A stretch of 64,000 nt of DNA from Thermoproteota archaeon (GTDB taxonomy: Archaea; Thermoproteota; Thermoprotei_A; EX4484-217-1), in contig JAPDJU010000002.1 in assembly GCA_029258915.1 (NCBI GenBank), forward strand, positions 62,001-126,000. Direction: 5' to 3'. The notes below the pieces were generated by a model. The model did no database searches. It was not told where the DNA came from and saw nothing but the letters and a program-made list of their open reading frames with translations. This document shows, in pieces, positions 4,198-53,721 of the stretch. Position 1 is the stretch's first letter. Every line of letters starts with the position of its first letter. Position numbers and translations under genes: made by a program.

Positions 4198-4341
4198 AAT
4201 TAACCTCACAGCATAAAATTGTATAGTATTCATTTAAGTTTTCTTCATAACCTTAGCCTAGGCGCTTAAAGGATGAAGAGAAATAGAAGCATTTATAACC
4301 ATGGAATATAGGAGACTTTAAATGGACTTAAGACACCTTAT

Positions 4342-37836: not shown

Positions 37837-38569
37837 TAGTTAGCCATTACTTGAAACATATAATTTTTGTACTGGTACTATCGTGTTAGACCTAGAGAAG
37901 CAGTAGCCAAGAAAATACTATGTATTGGTGAAGGCTTAACCTTTATGGTAGAATACTCATACCTAAGAATATTAGAAGAAAATAAAGATTAAATTTTTCT
38001 CTTCACCATAGAACTTATGGATGATATCACTATAGCGTTAAAGCCTATGGTTAGTGAAGTTTTAGAACTAGCTGGTATATTTAAGAAAACGCGTAGGAGA
38101 GAATTATAGGTACCTTGTTACTTAACATGTACTGCTTGGTGCTTATACATCCATATCCTATTTTATCCGTAGTAGGTTTCTCGAATACAGTGTTAAAGTT
38201 GTTGAACACATAGTTACAGGAGCAATCGTAGTCTATTGTCCCATCGGAAATATATAGCAGCATAGTGTTAATACCTAAAAGCAACAATATATCCTTACTC
38301 TTAAATAAACCAGTTATGTTCATAAAAGCATACTTTAAGTTTCTACATAAGCCATTACTGTTAATATCTGTTTAAACACTAAAATACCATGTAGAGTATG
38401 ATAAGCTGGGAAACTACATTACTCTAACTCATACTATGTTATAATAGCAAAACACTATAACCTATCATTATTGATCGAGCGACAAATACATAGTGACATA
38501 TTCGGGTAAACTAGGAATATAAACCATAGGCTTAAAAACTATTTTAGTCTCACTATACTATGACATCGA
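37837..38569. other. gene-poor stretch with coding-like remnants
   Basis: No confident gene. One plus-strand frame between about 37870 and 38109 reads like protein with a single TAA at 37990: before it RVRPREAVAKKILCIGEGL..., after it (ATG 38017) MDDITIALKPMVSEVLELAG, ending at 38109. This could be a decayed gene or two micro-genes. The remaining bases up to the VapC gene show nothing I can name. Confidence 0.35.
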
Positions 38570-38977
38570 TTAGCTTATCCATAGCCTTTTTACTGCAGGT
38601 ATTTTATCAAATTCCCTATCTTCACTAACTATTAGGGTAATATTATTGTTTATCATTGCTCCTAAATGTAGAGCATCTGAAGGTTTAAGACCATGTTCTA
38701 CTAATATTTTTTCAGCACTACTGTACTCTTCTTCCCCCAGACTAAGTATGTACACGTACGGGAGTATGTTAGACCGTATAAATTCTATTGAAATCCTATA
38801 TGGTATCCCATATTTTTTCTTAGAGATGTAGATTAGTTCGTCAAGTACAAGAACGTCCGTGTAAGGCTTATATTTAGTTAAAATATCTATGTAGAAGTTC
38901 TCATACAGCATCCTATCCCTGCTATTAGATAATGTGTTAAGATATATGAGAAGCGGCGAATCTATAAATGCCTTCAC
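38570..38977 (-). CDS. vapC: VapC-type PIN-domain toxin
   Basis: A 135-residue PIN protein. Acidic active-site positions are visible: D6 in KAFIDSPLLIYL, E in VLDELIY, D in PSDALHLGAM and the SEDREFD near the end. PIN toxins cleave RNA. It overlaps by 4 bases the AbrB-type antitoxin gene upstream, the normal order for a VapBC pair. Confidence 0.82.
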   Translation of the reverse strand: MKAFIDSPLLIYLNTLSNSRDRMLYENFYIDILTKYKPYTDVLVLDELIYISKKKYGIPYRISIEFIRSNILPYVYILSLGEEEYSSAEKILVEHGLKPSDALHLGAMINNNITLIVSEDREFDKIPAVKRLWIS

Positions 38978-39243
38978 TGCTCAAACTCCTCCTCAAGATA
39001 AGCTCGAGCTAGCTCACCAGGTTTAGGCTCCACTCTACTAGGAATGTTCTTTAAAACCTCGACATGTCTCCTTAACGAATCCCTAAGCTTCTCAACATCA
39101 ACCCTTCTCTTAGCAGGCCTAAGTATGATGCCATCTCTGACTTCAACAATAACTTCGTCGCCTTCATCAATACCAACGGCTTCACGAATAGCCTTAGGCA
39201 AAATAATATAGCCTTTTCTTCCAACTTTCAACCTAAGAGTCAA
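38974..39243 (-). CDS. vapB: AbrB/SpoVT-type antitoxin
   Basis: An 89-residue protein with an N-terminal swapped-hairpin DNA-binding domain: LKVGRKGYIILPKAIREAVGI and GDEVIVEVRDGIILRP are typical. The charged C-terminal half should bind and silence the PIN toxin encoded next. As with other antitoxins it probably represses its own promoter, which would lie in 39244-39300. Confidence 0.82.
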   Translation of the reverse strand: MTLRLKVGRKGYIILPKAIREAVGIDEGDEVIVEVRDGIILRPAKRRVDVEKLRDSLRRHVEVLKNIPSRVEPKPGELARAYLEEEFEQ

Positions 39244-39516
39244 ACTAAGCTCACCTATAGTAAAACTAGGGACAACCTACTATTAAATTTTCTAGCACCA
39301 ACTCTGCTCAGTTATGAACGTAATTTTATTACAGCTATGTATAAATATCATCAAATCACTAAAGAATTTCACCAAGTAACCAACATTTACCAACACTAAC
39401 TTTTAAACTAACCTATGCAGCAAATCCCTGTATTAAATAAGATTTTCAAATGAGAAGTTAAATTCTTGTTAAAAAAAATAAATATTTATCTAACCTTTGA
39501 AAAGCAGGTGATAAAA

Positions 39517-39975
39517 ATGAAGTCCAAATATGCTATTTTAGAAGCACTATTTATTACGATATTTATCACCACAACAGCCTTAATATCCGCTGGTGTAGCA
39601 TATGAATGGAAATACGGGAAAAGCTATACAGTAATATTAACAGCTGAAGTAGAAGCATACAGAACGGATAAGGCAGATGAGGTATCTTGGGAAGCAGGAG
39701 TCCATGATCGGCCTGAGATTGAGGGAGTAGAATGTGTCTGTATGTATCGGGATTTCTATATAATAGTCAACGAAACTTACATTCACGATTCATACGAATA
39801 TGGTTGGTTACCAGCACCTGATGGCAATAACTACGATTGTGATGGACATATTCACGGCAAAGCAGACTACCCCTACGCTAAAGGCTATGTAGTAAAAGCG
39901 GTCACATACATGATAGGAAAAACTAAAAACTACGGCTACGAAGGAGACCTTGAAGTCTCTACCAAACCATCATGA
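39517..39975 (+). CDS. secreted hypothetical protein
   Basis: About 152 residues from ATG 39517, which has AGGTGAT seven bases upstream. A signal peptide or anchor (residues 5-26, LEALFITIFITTTALISAG) is followed by an acidic, aromatic extracellular part containing CVCMY and CDGHIHG. The HIHG and cysteines could bind a metal. I do not recognise the family. It precedes another secreted-protein gene, which is broken. Confidence 0.5.
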   Translation: MKSKYAILEALFITIFITTTALISAGVAYEWKYGKSYTVILTAEVEAYRTDKADEVSWEAGVHDRPEIEGVECVCMYRDFYIIVNETYIHDSYEYGWLPAPDGNNYDCDGHIHGKADYPYAKGYVVKAVTYMIGKTKNYGYEGDLEVSTKPS

Positions 39976-40011
39976 GCTCTCCGGCACGCCAACAAGAGGG
40001 ATAAGAGTACA

Positions 40012-40904
40012 ATGCGCAGGGGTTTTTCTATTATCTATTTCCTTCCCACTTTAATAGTATTTCTCACTGTTTTAAACATGGTAATACCTGCGCTTTCTAC
40101 CAGTGCTAGCCATAGCTTTTATTGGATTAAACCTGGAATTTATGCTACTTATTGTTCTAATCCAAGAGTAAGCGTATTTTTTCTTAAAGACATTAAAGTC
40201 TCCGATAAAATAGTTTATGTTGTAAGACGTGGCTATCTTGCAAAGATGTGTTTTAGCTGGACAATATTAGATGTCCGCGATAACTTAGCTTATGTGAATT
40301 TCACTATTATCCTTGATGATATTTTGAAGAAAGGTATTGAGGAATGGATTCCATATGCTTTAGTAGAAGAGCCTGCACCTTCATAATGTACCCTCCTATT
40401 CCAAGTTTAGGACCTACAAGTAACGTCAGAGGCAATATGACCATAATTTATTATAATTTAACCAAGCTTACTCTAAGCAAAAACATTACCATTGACTTAA
40501 ATAACATGAAAGCATACTACGACGGGGAACCTGTCGGCTTATTCTTCTTCATTCTTCCTCCGGAAATCCTTACTGAAAATAAGCCTCTAATAGTATTCTC
40601 TGTTACCACTGATTTTAAAAAATGGAATATAGAGTATAGAGTTAACGAGAAAGATATTGATAGATATACTTACAATGCTATTGCTGATTTGAAACTCTTG
40701 CAAGAACTAAGCGAAAACGCCTCATTTAGAGTAAACTCTATTATTTTAAGTGGTCCTAGGCTTCTAAGAACAGAGACGAGAGCAGCTAATCTCTCTAAAG
40801 AACATTGGATGTACTTTGAGGAAAATAGGACTCTCATTAGCTACATATATGATCCTAAAATCCCTATAATAGCTATGAAAACGAATACTGCTTCTAAAGT
40901 ATAG
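40012..40904 (+). pseudogene. secreted protein gene split by a frameshift near 40380
   Basis: Frame one (40012-40386) has a signal peptide (FLPTLIVFLTVLNMVIPAL) and an extracellular start, stopping at TAA 40384. Frame two, open from 40344 and including the ATG at 40386 that overlaps this stop, continues the same style of extracellular sequence with N-glycosylation-like sites to 40904. A one-base change near 40380 would join them into a single protein of about 295 residues. Alternatively the TAATG overlap could couple two short genes, but part two then has no signal peptide, so a broken gene is likelier. Family unknown. Confidence 0.5.
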
Positions 40905-41116
40905 AGTATGGGAACTGTGAAATTCTCATAGCCATAGGATATGTAGAAAGCTGCAGCAATAGTATCAATTAACGTCTTATATAGGAAGGAAATCCAAAAC
41001 AATTTCCATTCCTTCACTATATAAGAGAACATTATTAAGACTATTGAAAATACGTGAATGAAAAGCGCTGAAACTCTTTCTATAATTGGTGCAGGAATAT
41101 TTTCAGCTTCAAATTA
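40841..41116 (-). pseudogene. C-terminal remnant of a membrane protein (YhfC-like)
   Basis: Reading leftward, an open frame from a stop at 41114-41116 has no start codon at its left-out N-terminus, then gives IPAPIIERVSALFIHVFSIVLIM, two more hydrophobic helices and an end at 40841. ERVSAxxxH followed by helices resembles the YhfC family of membrane proteins. Only the last ~90 residues survive, and they overlap the tail of the broken secreted-protein gene on the other strand. I read it as a decayed gene; an internal ATG at 41032 gives only a 63-residue piece. Confidence 0.45.
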
Positions 41117-41217
41117 TTGATGATATATATTAGCTTATAGGTATACTGTTTCTTGCGAGTTTAACGTGGTTAAGTCTTAAATTCTTAGTAGGAAGTATTA
41201 TTTTATGGGTTCTTTTT

Positions 41218-42396
41218 ATGGTTAAGGGTTTAGGTATTGATCCAGGTACTATGAGCTTTGATATTGCCGTTGTTGAGAATGATAGAGTTGTTTGGGAAAA
41301 ATCTATAAGCACTATTGAAGTTGCTAAGAATCCTTCAGTCCTTGTTAAAGGTGTTGAAGAAGCTGGTAAAGTAGATGTTATTGCTGGTCCTTCAGGTTAT
41401 GGAACACCAGTAGTATGGAATGAAGACATAATAGATCCTAGGGTTTTTGCTACTAAAATTCTTCTCTTAACAGATGAGGAAGATATTAGGAGAGGTGTTG
41501 AACGTGGAGAGTTTGGAATGGGTGTTTACGATGCTTTAACAAAAGTTGTTGTAGAGCTTTGGCGTAGAAAACTGCCTGTATGCTATATTCCATCAGTTAT
41601 CCTACTACCTACCGTCCCATCTTATAGGAAGATAAATAAGCTTGATATGGGTACAGCTGATAAAATGGCTATAGCTGTTCTTGCAGTTTACGATCAAGCT
41701 TCAAGACTTGGACTAAATTATGGTGAGACAAGCTTTATACTTGTAGAAATGGGTTTCGGCTATAATGCAGTAATGGCTGTTAAAAAGGGTAAAATTATTG
41801 ACAGTTTAGGCGGAACACTTGTACCAACAGGTTTCTTAACAGTAGGTCCTCTAGACGCAGAATTAGCTGTTGCAGGTAAAATGTGGGAGAGATCTGATGT
41901 ATTTTATGGAGGAGTATCTACAATATGTAGAACATTAAACGTCGAAGAAGCTGTTAGAAAATATGTTGAGGAAATAGAGCCATTTAAATCTGCTTTCGAA
42001 TCCATGTTTGAGTCTTTAGAAAAATCGGTAAGATCTCTTTTAGTATCTTTGCCTAACCCTAAAGAAATAATCATTTCAGGAAGGTTAACAAGAATACGGG
42101 ATATTAGGAAAGAAATTGAAAGAAGGCTTGGAAAAATAGCTCCTGTAGTAAAAATAAAGGGCCTTAAAGGGGCTAAGATATCTAAGGAAGCAGCTCAAGG
42201 ATACGCTATAGTAGCTGAGGGGCTTGGAGGAGGATATTTCAGAAAACTCATTGAACACATGGAGATACTTAAAGCTAAGGGAACAGTTATGAGCTGGGTT
42301 CACCATCCACGCCTCATGAAAGCTAAAGAAGAACTTAGAGAAGCCTATAGAAAAAGTGTAAAATCTGAAAAACAAAAAATATTCGACATTACATAA
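41218..42396 (+). CDS. DUF1464 family protein (ASKHA/butyrate-kinase-like)
   Basis: A 392-residue protein opening VKGLGIDPGTMSFDIAVVEND, the phosphate-1 motif of the actin/hexokinase/acetokinase fold, with FILVEMGFGYNAVMAV as a second nucleotide-binding segment. It matches archaeal DUF1464 in length and layout. Activity unknown; a small-molecule kinase is plausible. It lies 80 bases upstream of the homocitrate-synthase operon on the same strand and could be read with it. Confidence 0.65.
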   Translation: MVKGLGIDPGTMSFDIAVVENDRVVWEKSISTIEVAKNPSVLVKGVEEAGKVDVIAGPSGYGTPVVWNEDIIDPRVFATKILLLTDEEDIRRGVERGEFGMGVYDALTKVVVELWRRKLPVCYIPSVILLPTVPSYRKINKLDMGTADKMAIAVLAVYDQASRLGLNYGETSFILVEMGFGYNAVMAVKKGKIIDSLGGTLVPTGFLTVGPLDAELAVAGKMWERSDVFYGGVSTICRTLNVEEAVRKYVEEIEPFKSAFESMFESLEKSVRSLLVSLPNPKEIIISGRLTRIRDIRKEIERRLGKIAPVVKIKGLKGAKISKEAAQGYAIVAEGLGGGYFRKLIEHMEILKAKGTVMSWVHHPRLMKAKEELREAYRKSVKSEKQKIFDIT

Positions 42397-42478
42397 GAAA
42401 GTTGCAACTTAAAACATGTTTTCATTTTCTTTAATACTTCTAAATTACGTCCTTTTACCATAGGCATAGATTACAATA

Positions 42479-43708
42479 GTGTATTTAAAATATATTGAGA
42501 AAAATGTATTTGCTTACAGTGAGTGTTTAGCCTTGGTGCATGCTGTGGGTAATGTTGCTGTTAGTCCTTACAATAAAGCAAGTAAATGTAAGGTTCATCC
42601 TGTTATAATATATGATACTACACTTAGAGATGGTGAACAGTGTCCTGGAGTCTCATTTACTATTAGTGAAAAGCTTGAAATAGCTAAAATGCTTGACGAG
42701 CTTGGTATTCCTCAAATTGAAGCCGGTTTTCCCGTTGTTTCTGAAGAAGAAAGAAAAGCGATTAAAGCAATTACTAATGAAAACTTAAGGGCAGATATTC
42801 TTGTTCTATCTCGTTCACTTATAGGGGACGTTGATGAGGCTTTAAAATGCGATGTTGACGGTGTTCTAGTTTTCATGCCTCTCCCTGAGGCGCATCTTAG
42901 AAGAAAACTTAAAATAACATATGGGAAAGCCGTTGAAATGGCCGTTAAAACAGCTGAATACGCTAAAGAGCATGGGCTTTTTGTTCAAGTAAGTGTTGAA
43001 GATGCTACTAGAACTCCTTTGCAAAGGCTTTTAGACTTTTTCAGTAAAGTCGTTGAAGTAAAACCTGATAGAATAGGGTTAGCAGATACTGCAGGCTGCA
43101 TAACTCCTTCAGGTATGAAGTATTTAGTTAGAAAGATTAGGAGGAACATTGATGTTAAAGTTGCTGTCCACTGCCATAATGACTTCGGACTTGCTGTAGC
43201 AAACTCCTTAGCGGCTTACGAGGCTGGTGCTGGGGCAATATCTGTAACTGTTAATGGTATCGGTGAAAGAGCAGGTAATGCTGCTTTAGAAGAAGTTGTT
43301 ACAGCACTGTACTTTTTATATGGTGTTGATTTAGGTTTAAGACTTGAACTACTTAAACCTCTTTCAGAGCTTGTAGCTAAACTTTCAGGAATATCTTTAA
43401 ATCCCTTAAAACCTATTGTAGGTGAAAATGCTTTTCGACATGAATCTGGAATTCATGTTGCTGCGGTTCTTGAATACCCTAGAATGTATGAACCATATGA
43501 ACCAAGCCTTGTAGGTAATAGAAGGCAAATAGTTTTCGGTAAGCATTCAGGGCTTAAGGGTATTATTAAGTATTTAGAAAAACAAGGTGTTAGAGTTTCA
43601 AATAAAAAAGCTGATAAACTGCTTAAGTATGTTAAGTCTTTGCACAAAAAATTCATCGATGGAAATGAGTTAATTAACTTAGCTTTAAAGTTTGAGAAAG
43701 AGGTATAA
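42479..43708 (+). CDS. aksA: homocitrate synthase / AksA-type 2-oxoacid chain-elongating synthase
   Basis: A protein of up to 409 residues of the DRE-TIM family: YDTTLRDGEQCPG (46-57), HCHNDFG (231-237) and NGIGERAGNA (259-268). It ends soon after the TIM-barrel linker, so the leucine-sensing domain of LeuA (which brings LeuA to about 500 residues) is missing. ESGIHV (322-327) has the Val of homocitrate synthases, where isopropylmalate synthases usually read IHQ. YEPYEPSLVG also matches AksA/NifV types. It condenses a 2-oxoacid with acetyl-CoA. GTG 42479 is the longest start; TTG 42533 or GTG 42536 are alternatives. First gene of a seven-gene operon. Confidence 0.78.
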   Translation: MYLKYIEKNVFAYSECLALVHAVGNVAVSPYNKASKCKVHPVIIYDTTLRDGEQCPGVSFTISEKLEIAKMLDELGIPQIEAGFPVVSEEERKAIKAITNENLRADILVLSRSLIGDVDEALKCDVDGVLVFMPLPEAHLRRKLKITYGKAVEMAVKTAEYAKEHGLFVQVSVEDATRTPLQRLLDFFSKVVEVKPDRIGLADTAGCITPSGMKYLVRKIRRNIDVKVAVHCHNDFGLAVANSLAAYEAGAGAISVTVNGIGERAGNAALEEVVTALYFLYGVDLGLRLELLKPLSELVAKLSGISLNPLKPIVGENAFRHESGIHVAAVLEYPRMYEPYEPSLVGNRRQIVFGKHSGLKGIIKYLEKQGVRVSNKKADKLLKYVKSLHKKFIDGNELINLALKFEKEV

Positions 43709-43710
43709 CA

Positions 43711-44961
43711 ATGTCTTCAGCTATTGAAAAAATAATTTCAGACCACATAGGCAGAAAAGTACATGCAGGAGAATTCGTTGAAACCCCAATTGACCTAATT
43801 TATTTCCACGATGGAACAGGCATTCTTGTTTTTAAACATTTAGAGGAAATGCTTGTAAAAAAGGTAGGTGATGTTGAATCCATAGTTTTCTTCGATCATT
43901 CAGTACCACCGCATAGCATTGAAGCTTCAACATTGCAAAAGTATGTTTTAGAATCAAGCAGAAAGTTTGGTATATCTAAAATATACTTTATGGGTGAAGG
44001 TATAGGTCACCAAGTAATTCATGAAGAAGGCCATGTTAAACCAGGCCAAATAATTATTGGTGCGGATTCCCACACACCTACCTTAGGCGCTTTAGGTGTT
44101 CTCGCATTAGGTGTAGGAGCTTTAGATGCTGCTTACGGCTTAGCTGCTGGAAAACTATGGCTTAAAGTACCGGAAACACTACTTATTACGGTTGAAGGCA
44201 GAATACCCAAAGGTGTTTATGCTAAAGACATTATATTACATATTATAGGTTCTCTTAGAGCTTATGGGGCTTTAGGTAAAGTTGTTGAATTCTCAGGTTC
44301 TGTAACTGAAAGGCTAAATGTTGATAGCAGATTTACACTATGTAATATGTCTGTTGAAATGGGTGCTGCTTCATGTTTTCAAAAAATAGATGAAAAAACT
44401 ATAAACTACTTAAAGAACTTTGGAGTTTGTGATTTGAGAAAACACTTTTCTGATAAAGACTCTTATGTTGAAGAATACTTTTTCGATATTAGCTCCTTAG
44501 AACCTCAGGTTTCATGTCCTCATAGCGTTGATAATGTTAAATCTATTTCTGAAGTTGAAGGTACACCTGTGGACCAAATATTCATAGGTTCATGCACTAA
44601 TGGTAGGCTTGAAGACCTTGTTGAGGTAGCTAAAATACTTAAAAACGGCAAGGTGAAACCTTATGTTAAACTTATCATTGTTCCCGCTTCCAAGAGAATT
44701 CTTATGAAAGCTATGTCGTTAGGATTAATTGAAATATTTTTGAAAGCAGGGGCTATGGTGGGTGTTCCAGGCTGCGGACCATGCTTAGGTATGCATACGG
44801 GCGTTTTAGGCGATGATGAAGTAGCTATTTCTACTTCAAGTAGAAACTTTATTGGAAGAATGGGTAGTAGGAAGGCTAAAATATATTTAGCTTCACCAGC
44901 AACAGCAGCTGCTTCTGCTTTAACAGGAGAAATAACTGACCCCAGGAGGTTCTTAAAATGA
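43711..44961 (+). CDS. homoaconitase / isopropylmalate isomerase large subunit
   Basis: A 416-residue aconitase-family large subunit. It has GADSHTPTLGALG near residue 117 and three [4Fe-4S] cysteines at 295 (GSCTNG), 355 and 358 (PGCGPCLG). With the small subunit it isomerises the product of the preceding synthase via a dehydrated intermediate. Two bases separate it from the synthase and it overlaps the small subunit by 4. The large subunit alone does not decide between leucine and homocitrate pathways. Confidence 0.85.
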   Translation: MSSAIEKIISDHIGRKVHAGEFVETPIDLIYFHDGTGILVFKHLEEMLVKKVGDVESIVFFDHSVPPHSIEASTLQKYVLESSRKFGISKIYFMGEGIGHQVIHEEGHVKPGQIIIGADSHTPTLGALGVLALGVGALDAAYGLAAGKLWLKVPETLLITVEGRIPKGVYAKDIILHIIGSLRAYGALGKVVEFSGSVTERLNVDSRFTLCNMSVEMGAASCFQKIDEKTINYLKNFGVCDLRKHFSDKDSYVEEYFFDISSLEPQVSCPHSVDNVKSISEVEGTPVDQIFIGSCTNGRLEDLVEVAKILKNGKVKPYVKLIIVPASKRILMKAMSLGLIEIFLKAGAMVGVPGCGPCLGMHTGVLGDDEVAISTSSRNFIGRMGSRKAKIYLASPATAAASALTGEITDPRRFLK

Positions 44962-45446
44962 TTGTTAAGGGCCGTGTTTGGAAATTTGGAGACAACATAA
45001 GTACTGACATAATAATTCCAGGCAAATACCTTAGAACATTAAACTATAGTTTATGGGTAAAACATTTAATGGAAGGATTAGATCCCGCATTTAGCTCTAA
45101 AATCAGAAAAGGAGATATTATTGTTGCAGGTAAGAATTTTGGCTGTGGTTCAAGTAGAGAACAAGCTGTTTTAGCAATAAAACTTGCAGGTATTTCAGCA
45201 GTAGTAGCTGAGTCCTTTGGGTGGATATTCTTTAGAAACGCGATAAATAATGGACTATTAGTTGTCGAATGCCCTAACATTGTAAAGTATGTTGAAACCG
45301 GAGATATTATGGAAATAAATGTAATAGAAGGTTATGTGAAAACGCCTAGGAAAATATTATCAATAAAACCATATCCTAAATTCATAATGGACATTATTAG
45401 TTTAGGAGGGTTAACAGAGTATTATAGGAGGAAAAAACATGGTTAA
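44958..45446 (+). CDS. homoaconitase-type small subunit (YLRT loop)
   Basis: A 162-residue LeuD/HacB-type subunit with [15 protein letters not shown] and [16 protein letters not shown]. The substrate loop reads YLRT at residues 24-27. From memory of work on the Methanocaldococcus jannaschii enzymes, YLRT with Arg 26 marks homoaconitase, whereas isopropylmalate isomerases have a hydrophobic residue in place of the Arg. That favours tricarboxylate substrates (homocitrate and longer) over isopropylmalate. It overlaps both neighbours. Confidence 0.82.
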
Positions 45447-46446
45447 AATAGCTGTTATCCCAGGAGACGGTATTGGACCTGAAATAACAAATGCCGCATT
45501 AAAAGTCTTAGACAGCTTAAACATTAACTTAGAATATGAATTTTTCTACATCGGCTATAGTAGACTTCGCAAAACAGGTGAAGCGATATCAGATGACGAT
45601 ATTGAAGCAATTAAAAAAATAGGAATAGCGCTTATGGCTCCAGTAATTACGCCTTCTCCTAAGGAGGTTAAGAAGTATAGAAGCCCAGTTTTAACACTTC
45701 GTAAAGAACTAGATCTTTATGTCAACCTTAGGCCTGTTAAAAGCTTACCGGGAATACGCAGCATTAGGAGGAATGTGGATATGGTTATTGTTAGAGAAAA
45801 TATTGAGGGACTATACTATGGTGTTGAAGAAAAGTGCGGCAACGGCTATTACGCATTAATGGTTATAACGGAAAAGAATGCTAGAAGACTGGCAAAATTT
45901 GCTTTCAACTATGCTAAAAACCATGGTAGGAAGAAGGTAACTATTGTTCATAAAGCTAATGTTTTAAGGAAAACCCATGGTCTGTTCTTAAAAACATGTT
46001 TAGAGGTAGCTAAAAAATACCCTGAAATAAATGTTGAAGATTTACATGTAGATGTTGCTTCAATGTTTATGATTTTGAAGCCTGAAAAATTTGATGTAAT
46101 AATTACAACAAACATTTTTGGAGATATACTTTCAGGAGTATGTTCAGCACTAATAGGAGGTCCTGGACTTCTACCTTCAGCTAACTTAGGTGATAAATAC
46201 GCAATATTCTCTCCTGCACATGGCTCAGCACCTGACATCGCAGGTAAGAATATAGCTAACCCCATAGCTATGTTTCTTTCAGCAAAAATGATGCTTGAGA
46301 AACTAGGGTTTAACGGTGAAGCAGTGAGAATAGAGAAAGCAATAGTTAAAACGTTAAAAGCAGGAATTAAAACCCTCGATATAGGTGGTAAAGCTTCTAC
46401 AACGGAGTTTACAAAAGCAGTTATCAAGTTCCTTAAGGAGGAATGA
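45439..46446 (+). CDS. homoisocitrate/isopropylmalate-type dehydrogenase
   Basis: A 335-residue beta-decarboxylating dehydrogenase: PGDGIGPEI at the start, SPVLTLRKELDLYVNLRPVK (substrate loop and Arg residues), RENIEGLYYG (catalytic Tyr), HKANVLR (catalytic Lys) and the NAD motif APAHGSAPDIAGKN. It would oxidise and decarboxylate the isomer to a 2-oxoacid one carbon longer. SPVLTLRK resembles AksF-type enzymes more than LeuB. It overlaps the small-subunit gene by 8 bases. Confidence 0.83.
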   Translation: MVKIAVIPGDGIGPEITNAALKVLDSLNINLEYEFFYIGYSRLRKTGEAISDDDIEAIKKIGIALMAPVITPSPKEVKKYRSPVLTLRKELDLYVNLRPVKSLPGIRSIRRNVDMVIVRENIEGLYYGVEEKCGNGYYALMVITEKNARRLAKFAFNYAKNHGRKKVTIVHKANVLRKTHGLFLKTCLEVAKKYPEINVEDLHVDVASMFMILKPEKFDVIITTNIFGDILSGVCSALIGGPGLLPSANLGDKYAIFSPAHGSAPDIAGKNIANPIAMFLSAKMMLEKLGFNGEAVRIEKAIVKTLKAGIKTLDIGGKASTTEFTKAVIKFLKEE

Positions 46447-46453
46447 GTAAACA

Positions 46454-48001
46454 TTGACTATTAGAGTTTCTGAAGCCGTAGTTAAAGTTCTTGAAGACTT
46501 GAATGTTGAAACAGTATTTGGAATACCTGGAAGGTGGGTAAATCCACTGTACATTGCGTTTTCAGAATCAAAAATAAAACATGTGCTTATGAGACATGAA
46601 CAGGCGGCTGCACATGCTGCTGATGGATATGCTAGGGTATCAGGAAAAGTTGGAGTATGCTTGGCCACTGCAGGTCCAGGGGCTTTAGGATTAGTTCTAG
46701 GGATTGCTACAGCATATAAAGACCATGTACCATTACTTGCAATAACAGGTCAGGTTCCTTTAAAGCTTAAAGGAAAAAGGGTCACTGAAGAGCTAAACTT
46801 AGTGAATATTTTTAAACATATAACAAAAATGAGCTTGGAAATAACTAATCCAAGTAAAGCTTATGAACAAATATCTTTAGCCGCCATAGAGGCTCAAAGC
46901 GAATGCCCGGCTCCAGTCCATGTATCTATCCCGGAAGATGTACAGAGAAGTAAAACTTCCATTAGAAAACAACATTATTTCAAAAAACATAGAACTACAC
47001 CAAGAAAAGAAGATGTAGATATAGTTTCTGAAATGCTAAATAAAGCCGAAAAACCGCTGATTTTAGCAGGCCAAGGTGTGCTTTTAAGCAATGCTGAACA
47101 TGAACTCTGGAAGCTAGTTAAGAAAACCAGCATTCCAATTATAACAACACTTATGGCTAGGGGTATCATTCCAGAAGATAACCCTTTAAACCTAGGTTTT
47201 GCTGGATACTATGGGTCTATAGAAGCAAATAAAGCATTTGCTGAAAGTGATTTAGTCCTAGCTTTGGGCTGCAGCCTATCCTACAATACTATGTTCCACA
47301 TAAAACCTAAAGAGAAAACAATAGTTCAAGTAGATGTTAGCGAACATAACTTTAACAAGGAATATGCAACATTAACAATAAAATCAGACGTAAAAACATT
47401 CATCGCTAGGCTTCTAGAAAAAGTTAAGCCGAAAGCAAGAGCTTGGATTAAAGGAGGTAAACAGCAGTATGGGCTAAAAAATGGCAAGGGATTAAGTATT
47501 GCGAAAACACTTAGCAAAGAGCTAAGTAGGAAAACGGTTTTTGTTTTAGATATTGGAGAACACACTTTATGGTCTATTAGTAGTATTAAAGCATATATGC
47601 TAAGAACAATAATACTTCCAGGAAATTTAGCAACAGTAGGTTACTCATTACCAGCAGCAATAGGTGCTAAACTAGCTAAACCTAAAATGAATACCGTAGC
47701 TATAATGGGTGATGGAGGTTTTTATGCATCATCTAGTGAACTTGGCGTTATAAAACAATACAACATACCGATAATGATTGTAGTATACAATAATAGATAC
47801 TATGGTTTAACTAAAAAGTTTCAAGAAAAAATCTATAAGAAAAGTTTTGGCGTCTACCTTGGCGATTTCAGCTGCGCTAAAATAGCTGAAGCATACGGTA
47901 TTTCAAGCTACGTGGTTTCTAAACCCGAAGAACTTAAGGAAATTATACCTAAAAATATCGAAGAACCCTTACTTATTGAGATCACTCTAAGGTCTTCATA
48001 G
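46454..48001 (+). CDS. ThDP-dependent 2-oxoacid decarboxylase/synthase-like enzyme
   Basis: A 515-residue enzyme of the acetolactate synthase/pyruvate decarboxylase superfamily: catalytic Glu 49 in MRHEQAAAHAADGYAR and the ThDP-metal motif GDGGFYASSSE...YNN (419-447). True acetolactate synthases have GPGATN and an FQE loop; this protein has GPGALG (residues 74-79) and KGKRVTEELNL (106-116), with no FQE. No regulatory subunit gene is nearby. I infer it decarboxylates the elongated 2-oxoacid made by the four upstream enzymes. Start is TTG 46454, 8 bases after the dehydrogenase. Acetolactate synthase is the alternative. Confidence 0.7.
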   Translation: MTIRVSEAVVKVLEDLNVETVFGIPGRWVNPLYIAFSESKIKHVLMRHEQAAAHAADGYARVSGKVGVCLATAGPGALGLVLGIATAYKDHVPLLAITGQVPLKLKGKRVTEELNLVNIFKHITKMSLEITNPSKAYEQISLAAIEAQSECPAPVHVSIPEDVQRSKTSIRKQHYFKKHRTTPRKEDVDIVSEMLNKAEKPLILAGQGVLLSNAEHELWKLVKKTSIPIITTLMARGIIPEDNPLNLGFAGYYGSIEANKAFAESDLVLALGCSLSYNTMFHIKPKEKTIVQVDVSEHNFNKEYATLTIKSDVKTFIARLLEKVKPKARAWIKGGKQQYGLKNGKGLSIAKTLSKELSRKTVFVLDIGEHTLWSISSIKAYMLRTIILPGNLATVGYSLPAAIGAKLAKPKMNTVAIMGDGGFYASSSELGVIKQYNIPIMIVVYNNRYYGLTKKFQEKIYKKSFGVYLGDFSCAKIAEAYGISSYVVSKPEELKEIIPKNIEEPLLIEITLRSS

Positions 48002-48047
48002 AAAAATTTATTTTAACCCTATAAGCATCTATAACAGGGTTATAGAT

Positions 48048-49277
48048 TTGGAAAAATTCGATGTGATAATCATCGGTTCAGGTGCGGGAGGAAGCATTTT
48101 AGCTAAAGAGCTTGCTAGAAAAGGTAAAAATGTGCTAATTCTTGAAAAAGGAAGTACCATAAATGAAGCTGAGGCATTTAAAGCATATGATTTCGTATTT
48201 GCAGGCGTAGATATCTGGCGCATTATAGCAGTAGGAGGAACTACACTAGTATCCTTCGGCAACACTGTCCCAGTATTAGTTGATGAGATCAAAAGCCTAG
48301 GTTTAGATTTAAGAGATAAGATAAACGATTTAATTAAAGAATTAAAAGCTAAACCGCTTCCAGAAAAATTTAGAGGTAAAGGCACAAGAAGATTCATAGA
48401 AATAGCTAAAGAACTTAAATACAATGTTTATTTAATGCCTAAATCTATAGACCCTGAAAAATGTATTGTTCACTGCAAACATTGCACAGCAGGATGTATA
48501 ACAGGGGCTAAATGGAGTGCTCTTAAAGAGCTAAATACTGCATTATCCTTAGGGGCAAAGCTTGTTGATGAAGTAGGAAAAGTAAAGATCATAACATCAG
48601 GAGGTAAGGTGAAGGGTGTAAAATACATTAAAAATGGCGTAGAGAAAGAAGCTTATTCGTCGGTGGTTGTTTCCTGCGCAGGAGCTTTAGGAACACCTGA
48701 AATATTGTTTTCAGCAGGTTTAGAAGAAGGCATTGGTGAAAACCTTTTTGTTGACATATTTGTAACTGTAGGAGGTATTGTTGAAAACATAGAGCTTAAT
48801 AGAGAAATCGATATGCAAGCATATGTGAAATTGGAAAACGGTATTTTAACACCATTTTACAGTGTTTTCCTAAGACAACGTTACATATGTAAAGGTATTT
48901 CAGTAAGACCTAAAGACATAATGGGCATTATGGTGAAAATAGCTGATACACTATCAGGAACTGTGAGTAAGGAAGGAAAGATTTCTAAACCATTAACAGC
49001 TAAAGATATTGCCATATTAGAGGAATATTCTGAGAAAGCTGCTGAAATATTAGAAATAATGGGCGCTAATCCCAAATCAATAATTATTACACATCCAAGA
49101 GGCGTACATCCGGGGGGAACAGCAGCTATAGGTAAGGTTGTCGATAAAAACTTAGAAACAAAAATTGAAGGACTATATGTAGCGGATGCCAGTGTCCTGC
49201 CTAAAGCACCAGGGGCACCACCAATACTAACAATAATGGCTATAGCAAAACATTTAGCTAAAAATCTAAATTTCTAA
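48048..49277 (+). CDS. GMC-type FAD oxidoreductase with a four-cysteine cluster
   Basis: A 409-residue flavoprotein. N-terminal FAD motif VIIIGSGAGGSILAKELA (6-23) with E33 in LILEKG, and AVGGTTLVSFGN (61-72). It ends VHPGGTAAIG... EGLYVADASVLPK, the GMC C-terminal signature; the usual active-site Asn (NP) is replaced by APP, so its acceptor chemistry may differ. Cysteines 139, 143, 146 and 150 (CX3CX2CX3C) suggest an iron-sulfur cluster or structural zinc. In this operon it could oxidise or reduce the aldehyde formed by the ThDP enzyme. Start TTG 48048. Confidence 0.65.
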   Translation: MEKFDVIIIGSGAGGSILAKELARKGKNVLILEKGSTINEAEAFKAYDFVFAGVDIWRIIAVGGTTLVSFGNTVPVLVDEIKSLGLDLRDKINDLIKELKAKPLPEKFRGKGTRRFIEIAKELKYNVYLMPKSIDPEKCIVHCKHCTAGCITGAKWSALKELNTALSLGAKLVDEVGKVKIITSGGKVKGVKYIKNGVEKEAYSSVVVSCAGALGTPEILFSAGLEEGIGENLFVDIFVTVGGIVENIELNREIDMQAYVKLENGILTPFYSVFLRQRYICKGISVRPKDIMGIMVKIADTLSGTVSKEGKISKPLTAKDIAILEEYSEKAAEILEIMGANPKSIIITHPRGVHPGGTAAIGKVVDKNLETKIEGLYVADASVLPKAPGAPPILTIMAIAKHLAKNLNF

Positions 49278-49289
49278 CAACGAGTAAAA

Positions 49290-50033
49290 ATGGCTGAAAC
49301 ATGGAGACTTATAGTACTAAAACCGGTAGATTGCTATACAAGATGCTCTATTGATGAGGCACTGCTTAAATCTGTTGGTGAATGTAAGTCACCCAATACG
49401 CTGAGATTTCTTTCTATAAAACCTCCATCAGTAAGCATAGGGTATTTTCAAAAAATAAGAGATGTGGTGAATGTTGAGGAATGTAAGAAACTAGGTATAG
49501 ACATTGCTAGGAGGCCTAGCGGTGGAGGAGCAATATATCAAGATTATAGAGGAGAAATAACATATGCTATAGTAATTAAGTCTCATGACAAATTAGTTAA
49601 AGGATTAGATATTGAAGAAACATATAACAAACTTCTACAGTGGCTCATTAATGCCTTAAGAAAACTAGGGTTAAATGCTAAACATAAACCTCCAAACGAT
49701 ATCGTAGTTAATGGAAAGAAGATATCTGGAAATGCACAGTCAAGAAAGTATGGGGCAATACTTCAACATGGAACAATACTTATAAAAACATATAGGAATG
49801 TTATGGCTAAAGTTTTAAAGGTAAATGCTGAAAAACTGGAAAAAATAACCAGTATAGAAGACGAACTAAAAAGGAAAATAGATAGAAATATGTTAATAAA
49901 GGAATTAGCCAAAAGCTTCAAGGAAACATACGATATTGAGCTAGTAAAGTCTGATTTCACAGAATACGAGGCTAAGCTAATCGAGGAATTAAAGAAAAAA
50001 TATTCAAGTCATAAATGGATTTTTAAAAGATAA
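49290..50033 (+). CDS. lplA: lipoate/octanoate-protein ligase family protein (copy 2)
   Basis: A 247-residue ligase-fold protein: RRPSGGGAIYQD, NDIVVNGKKISGNAQSR (catalytic Lys in GKKISG) and LQHGTILI. It is the last gene of the operon, 12 bases after the flavoprotein. The family joins lipoate or octanoate to a protein lysine, or in some cases transfers it from another carrier. Differs from copy 1 (3358) in the C-terminal part and lacks its extra ~40 residues. Location suggests that the acid made by the operon is its substrate; this is inference. Confidence 0.8.
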   Translation: MAETWRLIVLKPVDCYTRCSIDEALLKSVGECKSPNTLRFLSIKPPSVSIGYFQKIRDVVNVEECKKLGIDIARRPSGGGAIYQDYRGEITYAIVIKSHDKLVKGLDIEETYNKLLQWLINALRKLGLNAKHKPPNDIVVNGKKISGNAQSRKYGAILQHGTILIKTYRNVMAKVLKVNAEKLEKITSIEDELKRKIDRNMLIKELAKSFKETYDIELVKSDFTEYEAKLIEELKKKYSSHKWIFKR

Positions 50034-50039
50034 AAACAA

Positions 50040-50885
50040 CTACATGGAATACTTAAGCTCCCTTATAAATTCCTCAATAATACCATTAAGCTCACTAGGT
50101 TTCTCATATAACACTAAGTGGCCTGCATCTTCGATTATTATGAGTCTAGAATTAGGGATAAGCTTATTTAACAATTTACTCTCACTTACTGGAGTTACCT
50201 TATCATCCCTGCCAACTATGATTAATGTTGGTACTTTAATTTCGTGAAGCCATTTTGTAGCATCGTAATCTATAAAAAACCTTGTATATCTAAATACGTA
50301 AGCTGGCAATCTTTCAAGGTATTCTTTATTGTCTTTAATAAATTCTTCAAAAACCTCTTTAGGTGTAGATGGGCTGAAAAATATTCTTCTATAAAGTCTT
50401 CTTGTAAGAGGAGTTTCTTTGTAAAGTATTTTTCTCCAAAATATTGGAGGTAAGTACCATATAATTTTATCGAAGATATCAGGTTTTATTTTAGTTAATG
50501 AACCTATTAACACTAGGCCTTTAACTTTATGTGTTCTAGCGTATGCTTGAGCTACCATACCTCCGAAACTGTGCCCTATCAAGATAGTGTCTTCAGTATT
50601 TAGTTTCCTGCTTTCGATGATTTTATCTAAGTCTTGAAGATAATCGTTTAATGAAACTTTTTTCGGCTTATCTGAGATCCCAAATCCTCTCTGATCATAA
50701 ACTATAATTCTATATTTCCTCTCAAAATATTCTACTTGATGCTTCCAATTACTGATCTGACCTGGTAGACCATGTAAAAATATTAAAGCTAATTTTTCTC
50801 TATAGCTACATTTTTCAGCGGAATCATATACATTTAGTTTTATGTTGCCTACATCTATGTAAAACGGTTTACCGCATCTAAACAT
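50040..50885 (-). CDS. alpha/beta-hydrolase
   Basis: A 281-residue hydrolase with the oxyanion strand FLHGLPG, YDQRGFGISDKP, nucleophile elbow GHSFGG (Ser 106), acid in VGRDDKVTP and His in EDAGHLVLYEKP, so the catalytic triad is complete. Substrate is not readable; esters, epoxides or thioesters are possible. It converges on the lipoate-ligase gene with 6 bases between them and is not in that operon. Confidence 0.75.
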   Translation of the reverse strand: MFRCGKPFYIDVGNIKLNVYDSAEKCSYREKLALIFLHGLPGQISNWKHQVEYFERKYRIIVYDQRGFGISDKPKKVSLNDYLQDLDKIIESRKLNTEDTILIGHSFGGMVAQAYARTHKVKGLVLIGSLTKIKPDIFDKIIWYLPPIFWRKILYKETPLTRRLYRRIFFSPSTPKEVFEEFIKDNKEYLERLPAYVFRYTRFFIDYDATKWLHEIKVPTLIIVGRDDKVTPVSESKLLNKLIPNSRLIIIEDAGHLVLYEKPSELNGIIEEFIRELKYSM

Positions 50886-51081
50886 AGCTCAGCTTACTCC
50901 AAACCATTACTTTAACTCCCATAGATGGTATACGTAAAAGAATTAAATTTATCTATATTAATGTATACACTATCATTACTTAAATTTCAATCAACATCCT
51001 CACAGCTTTTGAACATTCCTCCAGTATACTTAATAAGATAATTGAAAGTATGATTTTATGTATTTTAACTAATATCTAATC

Positions 51082-52401
51082 TTATGGTAAATTAATTCTC
51101 ATAGGCCAAGGGGTTTCCATCAGTTTATAAGCGAGCTTACAGGGCACCTTCATAACAAATGTCCATATAAATTTATGTGCAGCTATAATGCCTTTACGTG
51201 TCAGCTTTAATATTTCTTTATTGCCTTCAAGAAAACCCAAACTCTTCATAATTCTTAGACTCCACTTAAACGGTTTAGGTAAGGCTTCGAACCCGTAGCC
51301 TAACTTCTCTCTTAGAAAACTTGCATTGATAATTCCTCTGCAAAATAGCTGATCAGCGACAATTCTAGATGTTCTTTCAGATGTGTTAACACTTCTAGCA
51401 ACAGCTACGGGTAATTTATCGTTTAGCAGAGAACGTATATATTCTCTAACAGAGTGTACATTGCACCACTCGTATGTTCCTGTAAATCCGAAGGCGCCGG
51501 CTCCAAGAGCAAGTAACGGACCTGTCATTTCAAGGTTTACTGTAGAATAGTCTCCACCTTTACTCCAAGATTCTATTCTAACCATGTTATAGCTATCTAG
51601 TATTTTTTGAGATAAATTGACGAATTTTTCAAACAATTTAATAGGCTGTCTAACTTTACCTTTAACAGCATTATCCCAGATAATGGCTTGCGGCGTTAAA
51701 AGAGTTGGATATGTCGTTATTTGTGTGGGGTTAAGTTCTACTGCTATCCTTAGGTCTTCTTCCCATATTTTCAGATCTTCGCCGGGTATCATAAACATAA
51801 GATCTATATTTACAAGGTTATAGCCTGCGTTCTTACTGTTCTCCAGTGCTGCTATAGAATCTTCAGGGCCATGTCTTCTGCCCAGTTCTCTAAGTAAGCT
51901 TCTATGGAATGATTGGACACCAATACTAACTTCACTAACGCCGGCATCTCTAAGGGTAAATGTCTTAGATTCATCAGCTAAATCCTCGGGATTAGCTTCA
52001 ATACCGAAATCCGCTTTCCAGTTAAAAGTTGACTTTAATTCTTCAAGAATTACACGCCAGAAGTCTGACTGAGGAATGCTAGGTGTTCCTCCCCCCGCAT
52101 GTGCATCAACAACAACTAAGTCTAAGTCGTTAAGTAGTTTGCCAACCAATTTAATTTCCTTAATTAGGGCTTTAAAGTATTTGTTAAAGGCATTCTCATT
52201 CCAAAACTCACGGTAGTAAGGACAATATTTGCAGAAAGATCTGCAAAACGGGAAGTGAATGTATAAACCAATTTCATGTTCACTAATTTCTCGAATAAGT
52301 TTACAATGCATATTTTCAGTAACTCTTCTAAACTCTATATTGAAAACTTTATCCACTATGAATGACCAAAACTTCCATGTATTTTCATGAACAATTTCCA
52401 C
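51082..52401 (-). CDS. radical SAM protein, HemN/HemW-like
   Basis: A 439-residue radical SAM enzyme: iron-sulfur motif HFPFCRSFCKYC (Cys 53, 57 and 60), then DAHAGGGTPSIP and VSIGVQSFHRSLLRELGR, which follow the coproporphyrinogen dehydrogenase/HemW pattern. HemW-type proteins insert heme; HemN oxidises coproporphyrinogen. No other heme genes are nearby, so the exact role is open. Flanked on both sides by promoter-type non-coding DNA (50886-51081 and 52402-52716). Confidence 0.72.
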   Translation of the reverse strand: MEIVHENTWKFWSFIVDKVFNIEFRRVTENMHCKLIREISEHEIGLYIHFPFCRSFCKYCPYYREFWNENAFNKYFKALIKEIKLVGKLLNDLDLVVVDAHAGGGTPSIPQSDFWRVILEELKSTFNWKADFGIEANPEDLADESKTFTLRDAGVSEVSIGVQSFHRSLLRELGRRHGPEDSIAALENSKNAGYNLVNIDLMFMIPGEDLKIWEEDLRIAVELNPTQITTYPTLLTPQAIIWDNAVKGKVRQPIKLFEKFVNLSQKILDSYNMVRIESWSKGGDYSTVNLEMTGPLLALGAGAFGFTGTYEWCNVHSVREYIRSLLNDKLPVAVARSVNTSERTSRIVADQLFCRGIINASFLREKLGYGFEALPKPFKWSLRIMKSLGFLEGNKEILKLTRKGIIAAHKFIWTFVMKVPCKLAYKLMETPWPMRINLP

Positions 52402-52522
52402 TATAGGTGCACCATTTTAAAATAGTGGGTGCACGCTTAAAGCATTTTTCCCAATAAAATAATAAACTATGCTATAGAGCGTAATTCTTGAGCTTAAAAA
52501 TCATAGTTTCACAATTGAATAG

Positions 52523-52531
52523 TCTTATATA
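52523..52531 (+). promoter_or_regulatory. TATA-like box upstream of structured RNA candidate
   Basis: TCTTATATA/ATT lies about 25 bases before the GTGTGCCGTGAGG segment, at the archaeal TATA-to-start distance. It would start a transcript near 52553. Confidence 0.4.
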
Positions 52532-52552
52532 ATTCGTGATTATTTAGTCAGT

Positions 52553-52620
52553 GTGCCGTGAGGTAAGTCATTCCTCCCATGGGGTCCTCTCATATGAGAG
52601 GAGGTTTCATCACCTCAACT
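52553..52620 (+). ncRNA. candidate structured RNA or leader ahead of the DUF2148 gene
   Basis: Within about 70 bases there are three nested pairings: TGAGGT (52559-52564) with ACCTCA (52612-52617); CCTCC (52573-52577) with GGAGG (52600-52604); and a perfect 16-base palindrome CCTCTCATATGAGAGG (52586-52601) in between, plus CCCATGGG (52576-52583). Some of these are mutually exclusive, as in a switch. The segment is GC-rich against its AT-rich surroundings and follows a TATA-like box. It lies about 100 bases before the next gene. I match it to no known RNA family. Confidence 0.4.
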
Positions 52621-52725
52621 AATATTATTGCAGGGTAGAAAATAAGTTATTTTTCTTACAACGTTATTTGAAGTTGATAGTGTTTAAGTACTGTGTAAAG
52701 TTATTGTTTTAACCGGGTGTATCCT

Positions 52726-53223
52726 GTGATTAGGGAAAATGATTTCTTAAATGAAGTATCTTTACTTGTAGCTAAACTAATGGCTTCCTCAGCTAAAACA
52801 GCTCCTAAAGCTAAAGGAGTAGACAACATTACTGCTGTAATTTTAAGTAAAAAGGAGGAATTAGAAAAATTAGCTAAGAAAATGGAGGAACTGGCTTCAA
52901 AATATGGTAAATTCTATGCTAGAGATTCTAAAAACATTATGAACTCGGATGCAGTTGTCATACTGGGATGTAAAATAGTTAAGCTCAATCTTAAACAGCC
53001 AGAAATTTGGCGTGAAAACATAGACACAGTAGCAAGCATTTTGAATTTAGGGATAGCATTAGGTTCTGCTGCTAAAACAGCTTCAATACATAATGTTGAC
53101 AATAGGATAATGCTAAGCGCAGGTGTAGCTGCTCAAGAACTTAGGATAATAGATGCAGATATAGCTATAGCTATACCTTTAAGCATTAAGGGTAAGAACA
53201 TATTTTTTGATAGAAAATATTAA
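52726..53223 (+). CDS. DUF2148 family protein
   Basis: About 165 residues, matching DUF2148: MASSAKTAPKAKGVDNI near the start, VVILGCKIVKLNLKQPEIWR and LGIALGSAAKTASIHNVDNRIMLSAG. The family is often called ferredoxin-like, but the cysteines expected of a cluster are few here. I start at GTG 52726 (GGGTG upstream) over GTG 52717, which is also possible. Its 5' leader contains the structured RNA candidate. Confidence 0.65.
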   Translation: MIRENDFLNEVSLLVAKLMASSAKTAPKAKGVDNITAVILSKKEELEKLAKKMEELASKYGKFYARDSKNIMNSDAVVILGCKIVKLNLKQPEIWRENIDTVASILNLGIALGSAAKTASIHNVDNRIMLSAGVAAQELRIIDADIAIAIPLSIKGKNIFFDRKY

Positions 53224-53228
53224 ACAAC

Positions 53229-53669
53229 CTATTTTATTCTTTCAGCATTAATAATCATTCTTGCTTCATTAAGTTTAAGTAAAACTTCGCTTAGTATTCT
53301 AGGGACCTCCTCGTATCCTGTAATACCACCAACTATACTATCTATTATGCTTATACTTTCCCTTAAAAGCGCTATTAACCTAAAAGACCTAGTCTTAGCT
53401 TCTACCCTACTTAGCAGTTTTCGTAGGTTTTTAGAAACTCTTTTTAATTTTTCAACTGTTTTCACCAAGTGTACTTCATATTCTTCAGCTCCAAGATAAG
53501 GTAATTTTCGTGTGAGATGTTTTTGACGGAACTCTCTTCTAAACTTAGAAAATAGTGATACTTCGCCTTTAGCTACTTTATGTTTAAGAATTTCAAAAGA
53601 TCTCTTTATGTCGGCAATTTCCCTAATTATATCCTCTAATTCCTTGCCTATACTTTTTCTAAATATCAA
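53229..53669 (-). CDS. helical coiled-coil protein
   Basis: A 146-residue, nearly all-helical, basic protein (RKSIGKELEDIIREIADIKRSFEIL, then a long middle helix and GGITGYEEVPRILSEVLLKLNEA). The charged helices and ending distantly recall Snf7/CdvB (ESCRT-III-like) proteins, but the match is weak. It lies upstream of the large secreted propeller gene on the same strand, 5 bases from the convergent DUF2148 gene. Confidence 0.45.
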   Translation of the reverse strand: MIFRKSIGKELEDIIREIADIKRSFEILKHKVAKGEVSLFSKFRREFRQKHLTRKLPYLGAEEYEVHLVKTVEKLKRVSKNLRKLLSRVEAKTRSFRLIALLRESISIIDSIVGGITGYEEVPRILSEVLLKLNEARMIINAERIK

Positions 53670-53721
53670 ACAGATCTCCAGGACTAAGTTTGCCAGTATG
53701 TTTAATAAAAATGTTGTTAAG

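Follow-up and report, generated by a model that had tools for sequence, protein, structure and literature searches.

A chain-elongation operon of the coenzyme B type as a probable source of the lipoyl group in a Thermoproteota archaeon

The subject of this article is a seven-gene operon at positions 42479–50033 of a 64,000-nucleotide window from the genome of a Thermoproteota archaeon (GenBank assembly GCA_029258915.1, contig JAPDJU010000002.1, positions 62,001 to 126,000 of the forward strand). By the window we mean the whole stretch of DNA that was analysed. We read the operon as a lipoyl-precursor pathway, assembled from enzymes of the coenzyme B type, that delivers 8-mercaptooctanoate, and we give this reading a probability of roughly 0.6; the substrates, the number of elongation cycles, the reaction of the flavoprotein and the action of the ligase LplA without LplB are the parts that we infer. 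The broader claim, that the operon is a coenzyme-B-type pathway of dicarboxylate elongation and decarboxylation of some kind, we hold to be very probable. The argument draws on gene content, kinship, gene losses and motifs, which the analysis shows.

The seven open reading frames all lie on the + strand and follow one another with intergenic gaps of 2, −4, −8, 7, 46 and 12 bp, so the tight spacing and overlap described in an earlier sequence-only reading of this DNA is borne out. Pfam and NCBIfam also agree with that reading in making the first four genes AksA-, AksD-, AksE- and AksF-like. The AksA-like homocitrate/2-oxoacid elongation synthase (42479–43708, 409 residues) has the HMGL-like (PF00682) and HCS_D2 domains without the allosteric domain of LeuA, and is the sole HMGL-type synthase above family cut-off in the genome. 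It is followed by an AksD-like homoaconitase large subunit (43711–44961; IPMI/homoaconitase large family, TIGR02086 at 533.6 bits against a cut-off of 410), an AksE-like small subunit (44958–45446; TIGR02087, 202.5 bits, cut-off 109) and an AksF-like homoisocitrate-type dehydrogenase of the Iso_dh family (45439–46446), whose best NCBIfam model is AksF2_Meth at 394 bits, below the cut-off of 540. Both AksA and AksF score under the NCBIfam equivalog cut-offs. The remaining three genes encode a thiamine diphosphate (ThDP) enzyme with three TPP-enzyme domains, a proposed 2-oxo-dicarboxylate decarboxylase (46454–48001); a short GMC-type flavoprotein of 409 residues with an embedded iron–sulfur (Fe-S)-type cysteine motif, proposed to carry out reductive thiolation (48048–49277); and the catalytic domain of an LplA-type ligase, proposed to load a mercapto acid on lipoyl domains (49290–50033; LplA-B_cat 158 bits, LplA_large 182 bits). 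TTG serves as the start codon of the ThDP and GMC genes. The GTG start of aksA at 42479 adds about 35 N-terminal residues and has no obvious ribosome site, and the true start may lie downstream. Since the same gene types recur clustered in many other genomes, the gene order is not a matter of chance.

What makes the operon a candidate for lipoate synthesis is the state of the lipoate machinery in the rest of the genome, which is 1.6 Mb in size and 99.66% complete. Among the host proteins are GcvH (PF01597) and a lipoyl-domain E2 of a 2-oxoacid dehydrogenase, and genes near them look like those for GcvT, GcvP subunits and E1. (This E2, L190:7078-8736, has a C-terminal carboxymuconolactone-decarboxylase/AhpD-like domain.) One of the 33 radical S-adenosylmethionine (SAM) genes in the genome is LipS1 (NF053742, 280 bits, cut-off 230), in which cysteines C26/C30/C33 and C234/C276/C277 match the radical SAM and auxiliary cysteines C27/31/34 and C230/276/277 of the Thermococcus kodakarensis protein. 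LipS2 is absent from the host genome, the best score being 28.9 bits against a cut-off of 270, and scans of the 33 radical SAM genes found neither a LipA motif nor a LipA match at the family cut-off. The two T. kodakarensis enzymes each take a single type of substrate, octanoyl for LipS2 and 8-mercaptooctanoyl for LipS1, and LipS1 gave no product from an octanoyl or 6-mercaptooctanoyl peptide (PMC9585515). It follows that a host which has LipS1 but not LipS2 must obtain 8-mercaptooctanoyl groups in another way.

The loss can be followed in place. A sister genome (G201) has the genes arranged as orf – lipS1 – lipS2 / lplA – lplB – glnA. The flanks in the host genome and in a second genome of its genus (G200) are collinear with these; there, glnA comes directly after lipS1, and lipS2, lplA and lplB are missing. 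LipS2 is present in 24 of the 27 LipS1-bearing genomes examined, the exceptions being the host, G200 and a third genome, G202. No homolog of LplB was found in the host genome, which has two LplA-type genes, both inside the window. The LplA of the operon is kin to LplA genes that adjoin lipS1/lipS2 in other genomes; because in the LplA tree it falls, with moderate support, close to Methanomethylicota LplA and to fused LplAB proteins, we do not claim simple vertical descent from the lipS locus. The second ligase, of 291 residues (3358–4233, − strand), lies about 45 kb from the operon and belongs to another clade, together with an LplA from G202. What is common to the host and to archaeal LipS1/LipS2–LplA/LplB assembly of the T. 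kodakarensis type is the LipS1 family, an LplA-type ligase, lipoyl targets and an expected 8-mercaptooctanoyl intermediate. The host differs in being without LipS2 and LplB, in having its LplA inside a chain-elongation operon, and in the proposed origin of the C8 sulfur, which would enter through thiolation of a free-acid aldehyde and not through radical insertion into an octanoyl group.

Genomic context had been suggested as a check of the sequence-only reading, and its examination turned up the closest related clusters in archaeal genomes that bear mcr. The GMC and McrA searches covered the same 200 genomes of the phylum, with the GMC protein found in 25 and McrA in 24. GMC tracks mcrA closely: it is in 20 of the 24 mcr-positive genomes and 5 of the 176 mcr-negative ones (Fisher p = 3e-19, for genomes that are phylogenetically non-independent), and the four mcr-positive genomes without it are 74–87% complete. 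Three families have both proteins, namely f11, f35 and f38. Clusters of f11, which includes Candidatus Methanomethylicota WYZ-LMO11 (locus L085 = G069:C59), run aksA – methanogenesis marker 4 (MMP4) – aksD – aksE – ThDP – methanogenesis marker 11 (MMP11) – GMC, and that of an mcr-positive f38 genome, G115, runs aksA-D-E-F – ThDP – MMP11 – GMC. No LplA was found in the mcr-linked aks clusters, and no MMP11 in a search limited to the window operon, though it is present in the G115 and f11 clusters. The host genome itself has no match to McrA. Of the partners named for a co-occurrence check, then, mcr is found in the genomes of the kin clusters and lipoyl proteins in the host; neither mcrA nor, among the radical SAM genes, BioB was found in the host.

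The G115 cluster is the closest relative of the window operon, with identities of 67% for aksE, 61% for aksF, 56% for aksD and 50% for GMC; the window AksA is 68% identical to a partial AksA of that genome. Identities to the cluster homologs span 52–56% for AksD and 62–67% for AksE, and 37–46% for the ThDP enzyme in mcr-linked clusters, with 47% for G115. In the GMC tree the window protein and its G115 counterpart form a sister pair (support 100/98), which sits inside a clade with proteins of Methanobacteriaceae and ANME-1 (96/99), separate from bacterial homologs. The window AksA joins the AksAs of the mcr-linked clusters of f11 (100/99) instead of the LeuA-like enzymes found in its own class. 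Because of these two placements, we consider the operon to be of the mcr-linked type and most likely acquired by transfer. We considered G202 as a second clean case and rejected it: the GMC gene there is broken and stands in no operon, LipS1 is interrupted by a stop, and the AksA-like gene does not join the clade of cluster AksAs. That GMC gene (L272:123-1370), at the end of a contig, resembles the GMC gene of G035 and is distributed over more than one reading frame.

Clues to the substrates come from the elongation and ThDP enzymes. Residues 24–27 of AksE (45027–45038, + strand) read YLRT, the loop of the solved homoaconitase small subunit 2pkp, in place of the YLVY of the isopropylmalate/citramalate isomerase 3vba, and every cluster AksE has YLRT or YLRS. 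A literature search for the YLRT motif found no paper; in methanogen homoaconitase the loop is reported to pick dicarboxylate-extended substrates, and its presence here argues for a preference of AksE for dicarboxylates. Homology, the AksA clade and the YLRT motif all fit action of AksA/D/E/F on dicarboxylic 2-oxoacids. The ThDP enzyme falls far short of the acetolactate synthase models that lie nearest to it in NCBIfam (401.8 bits against a cut-off of 866, and 387.7 against 538). It reads LGCSLSYNT at the site that is FGVRFDDRVT in a solved acetolactate synthase, it and its cluster kin share motifs unlike those of acetolactate synthase, and the ThDP enzymes of mcr-linked clusters have a PG(M/R)W motif whose tryptophan is invariant.

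These motifs bear on whether the operon is an ordinary pathway of the leucine or α-aminoadipate (AAA)-lysine type, one whose ThDP enzyme resembles acetolactate synthase and whose neighbours have no part in it. The sequence-only reading was to be abandoned if leucine-type enzymes here proved to be the only such genes in the genome and used 2-oxoisovalerate, or if the ThDP enzyme made acetolactate. The operon enzymes are indeed the only such ones in the genome, and NCBIfam puts the ThDP enzyme nearest the acetolactate synthases, though far under cut-off. Leucine synthesis, however, is disfavoured by the AksE loop, by an AksA that groups with mcr-linked clusters and by ThDP enzymes that lack the RFDDR stretch, the flavin adenine dinucleotide (FAD) motif of the acetolactate synthase type; the GMC protein and LplA would also go unexplained. 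We rejected this explanation, very improbable in our view, on the motif and tree evidence.

The flavoprotein scores 44.7 bits with PF00732 (cut-off 23) and 46.3 bits with PF05199 (cut-off 24.6), carries an FAD motif, and has four cysteines (C139, C143, C146 and C150) in the motif CIVHCKHCTAGC (48462–48497, + strand) that are invariant in 13 aligned homologs and likewise in 8 aligned archaeal and bacterial homologs. Its structure model (predicted local distance difference test score, pLDDT, 83.5) has fructose dehydrogenase and FAD-glucose dehydrogenase as best fold matches, two enzymes that carry an Fe-S cluster. The likeness to such Fe-S GMC dehydrogenases, including the Burkholderia FAD-glucose dehydrogenase, lies in the GMC fold with FAD; the window protein is about 15% identical to them, smaller at 409 residues, has a four-cysteine ferredoxin-like motif and belongs to an anaerobic archaeal setting. 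On an ANME-1 contig (L077:8086-11251) HcyBio, an NIL/4Fe-4S (ferredoxin) gene and a GMC homolog stand in a row. HcyBio/COG1900 proteins convert aldehydes to thiols in the synthesis of homocysteine and coenzyme M (PMC12068725), and the ANME-1 neighbourhood supports a role for the GMC protein in reductive thiolation, which is the activity we predict for it. The resemblance to HcyBio/COG1900 sulfur transfer (L-ASST for homocysteine, MMP16 for coenzyme M) would be one of aldehyde-to-thiol chemistry and of a GMC homolog directly after HcyBio and NIL/ferredoxin in ANME-1; unlike those systems, the window operon has no HcyBio gene. In two Omnitrophota loci (L087 and L092) GMC homologs of a different clade lie about 3 kb downstream of aconitase-type, dehydrogenase, dihydrolipoyl dehydrogenase and LipB-like genes, where the LipB and dehydrogenase names were assigned by eye.

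A simpler product than a thiol would be plain octanoate, made by elongation of monocarboxylic 2-oxoacids, release of octanal and oxidation by the GMC protein, with LplA attaching octanoate and LipS1 alone inserting both sulfurs. GMC enzymes are often oxidases or dehydrogenases, LplA and LipS1 are both present, and the archaeal octanoate source is open (PMC10332631). We rank this route lower, and think it distinctly unlikely, because LipS2 has been lost and LipS1 of T. kodakarensis is inactive on octanoyl or 6-mercaptooctanoyl peptide (PMC9585515). The YLRT loop and the AksA clade, moreover, indicate dicarboxylates, and the GMC kin track mcrA, where a thiol rather than a fatty acid is required.

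The pathway to 8-mercaptooctanoate that we favour would run as follows. For coenzyme B, AksA/D/E/F yield 2-oxosuberate, from which 7-mercaptoheptanoate would be made; one further cycle, to 2-oxoazelate, would lead to 8-mercaptooctanoate. In the host, repeated cycles from 2-oxoglutarate would thus reach a long 2-oxo-dicarboxylate, most likely 2-oxoazelate (C9), and the ThDP enzyme would remove the 2-oxo carboxyl to leave 8-oxooctanoate. This aldehyde would become a thiol through the action of the Fe-S GMC flavoprotein, which would draw on a sulfide donor and on reduced ferredoxin or a comparable reductant. LplA would then place 8-mercaptooctanoate on the lysine of the GcvH and E2 lipoyl domains, as it does octanoate or lipoate, and LipS1, encoded elsewhere in the genome, would add the C6 sulfur to give lipoyl. 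LipS2, which normally converts octanoyl to 8-mercaptooctanoyl, would have become dispensable, hence its disappearance. The scheme proposed in the sequence-only reading, of elongation, ThDP decarboxylation, a flavoprotein redox step and ligation to a carrier, fits all the evidence; its C7 product, 7-oxoheptanoate, does not carry over, lipoyl use needing the C8 homologue. Two of the destinations it offered turn out to be linked, a coenzyme-B-like thiol through enzymes whose kin track mcrA and a lipoyl precursor through LplA and the loss of LipS2.

The third destination was pimelate for biotin, by way of 2-oxosuberate and 7-oxoheptanoate. The genome does have genes for biotin-dependent carboxylases and a biotin ligase (L050, read by eye), but that ligase is separate and the one in the operon is of the LplA type. 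BioB gave no match at the family cut-off among the 33 radical SAM genes (best 53.7 bits against 225), on which ground we rejected this route as highly improbable.

Another product would be coenzyme B, or a free thiol like it, retained after the loss of Mcr, with LplA present by chance or forming an amide with threonine (phosphate). The enzymes are kin of mcr-linked clusters, and carboxylate activation with amide formation of the LplA type could suit mercaptoheptanoate plus an amine. Yet the host is without mcrA, the operon lacks the MMP11 that its kin have, the relatives of its LplA adjoin lipS1/lipS2, and the matching loss of LipS2 would be left unexplained. We regard this explanation as unlikely.

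Several points weigh against a lipoyl-precursor pathway. The full operon is in one complete genome only, and was not found in G200, which is 67% complete. G202, of the same order, has a diverged, frame-broken LipS1 and neither LipS2 nor a matching operon, so that loss of LipS2 does not by itself imply the operon. GMC homologs, of other GMC clades, occur also in LipS2-bearing or mcr-less genomes (G035, G166 and several bacteria). The chain length of elongation is not readable from sequence, and with LplB, the partner in the archaeal bipartite ligase, missing, LplA must act alone or as a transferase. Finally, it is by inference that the kin clusters are assigned to coenzyme B synthesis.

Around the operon, a DUF1464 protein (41218–42396, + strand) ends 82 bp upstream of aksA; it has weak similarity to butyrate kinase and is a possible carboxylate kinase. 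Directly downstream, on the opposite strand, lies a HemW/HemN-like radical SAM protein (51082–52401, −) that is under all family cut-offs. Promoter and terminator scans gave results at or below chance, and an Rfam scan of positions 38000–54000 gave no match at gathering score.

According to published work the coenzyme B pathway has yet to be worked out (PMC12068725), with two unknown proteins estimated for it (PMC3087415), and its steps after 2-oxosuberate lack assigned genes (PMC3087415, PMC12068725); where archaeal lipoate gets its octanoyl group is likewise unsettled (PMC10332631). The window operon touches both. With coenzyme B biosynthesis it has in common homologous elongation enzymes, the ThDP and GMC partners of mcr-linked clusters and an omega-mercapto acid as predicted product; it differs in a host without mcrA, in LplA instead of MMP11, and in probably one extra elongation cycle, giving a C8 instead of a C7 thiol acid. 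Co-location with aks genes in mcr-linked clusters makes the ThDP enzyme, the GMC protein and MMP11 good candidates for later steps of coenzyme B synthesis. In loci of the Methanomethylicota type (L032, L036–L038, L044 and L085) MMP4 and MMP11 both lie inside the aks–ThDP–GMC cluster, which suggests that both take part; the MMP4 of the f11 clusters is weakly similar to phosphate butyryltransferase. LplA stands in the operon where the kin clusters have the TiaS-like MMP11, and as LplA makes an amide from an acid, one might speculate by analogy that MMP11 forms the amide in coenzyme B synthesis. A literature search for MMP11 together with coenzyme B found nothing.

We would give even odds to the full proposal: a new route to lipoate in which the C8 sulfur comes from reductive thiolation of an elongated aldehyde acid, by chemistry common to coenzyme B, and in which coenzyme B synthesis owes its missing steps to the ThDP enzyme (decarboxylation), the GMC protein (thiolation) and MMP11 (amide formation). 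One gene set makes two questions testable, the source of the octanoyl group in archaeal lipoate and the coenzyme B pathway, and the cluster names concrete candidates for a decarboxylase, a thiolation enzyme and a ligase. If the lipoate reading is true, the loss of LipS2 with LipS1 kept makes a sharp prediction, namely that the operon delivers an 8-mercaptooctanoyl group. The evidence suggests that lipoic acid may be built by a route not described before, and points to candidate genes for the coenzyme B pathway.

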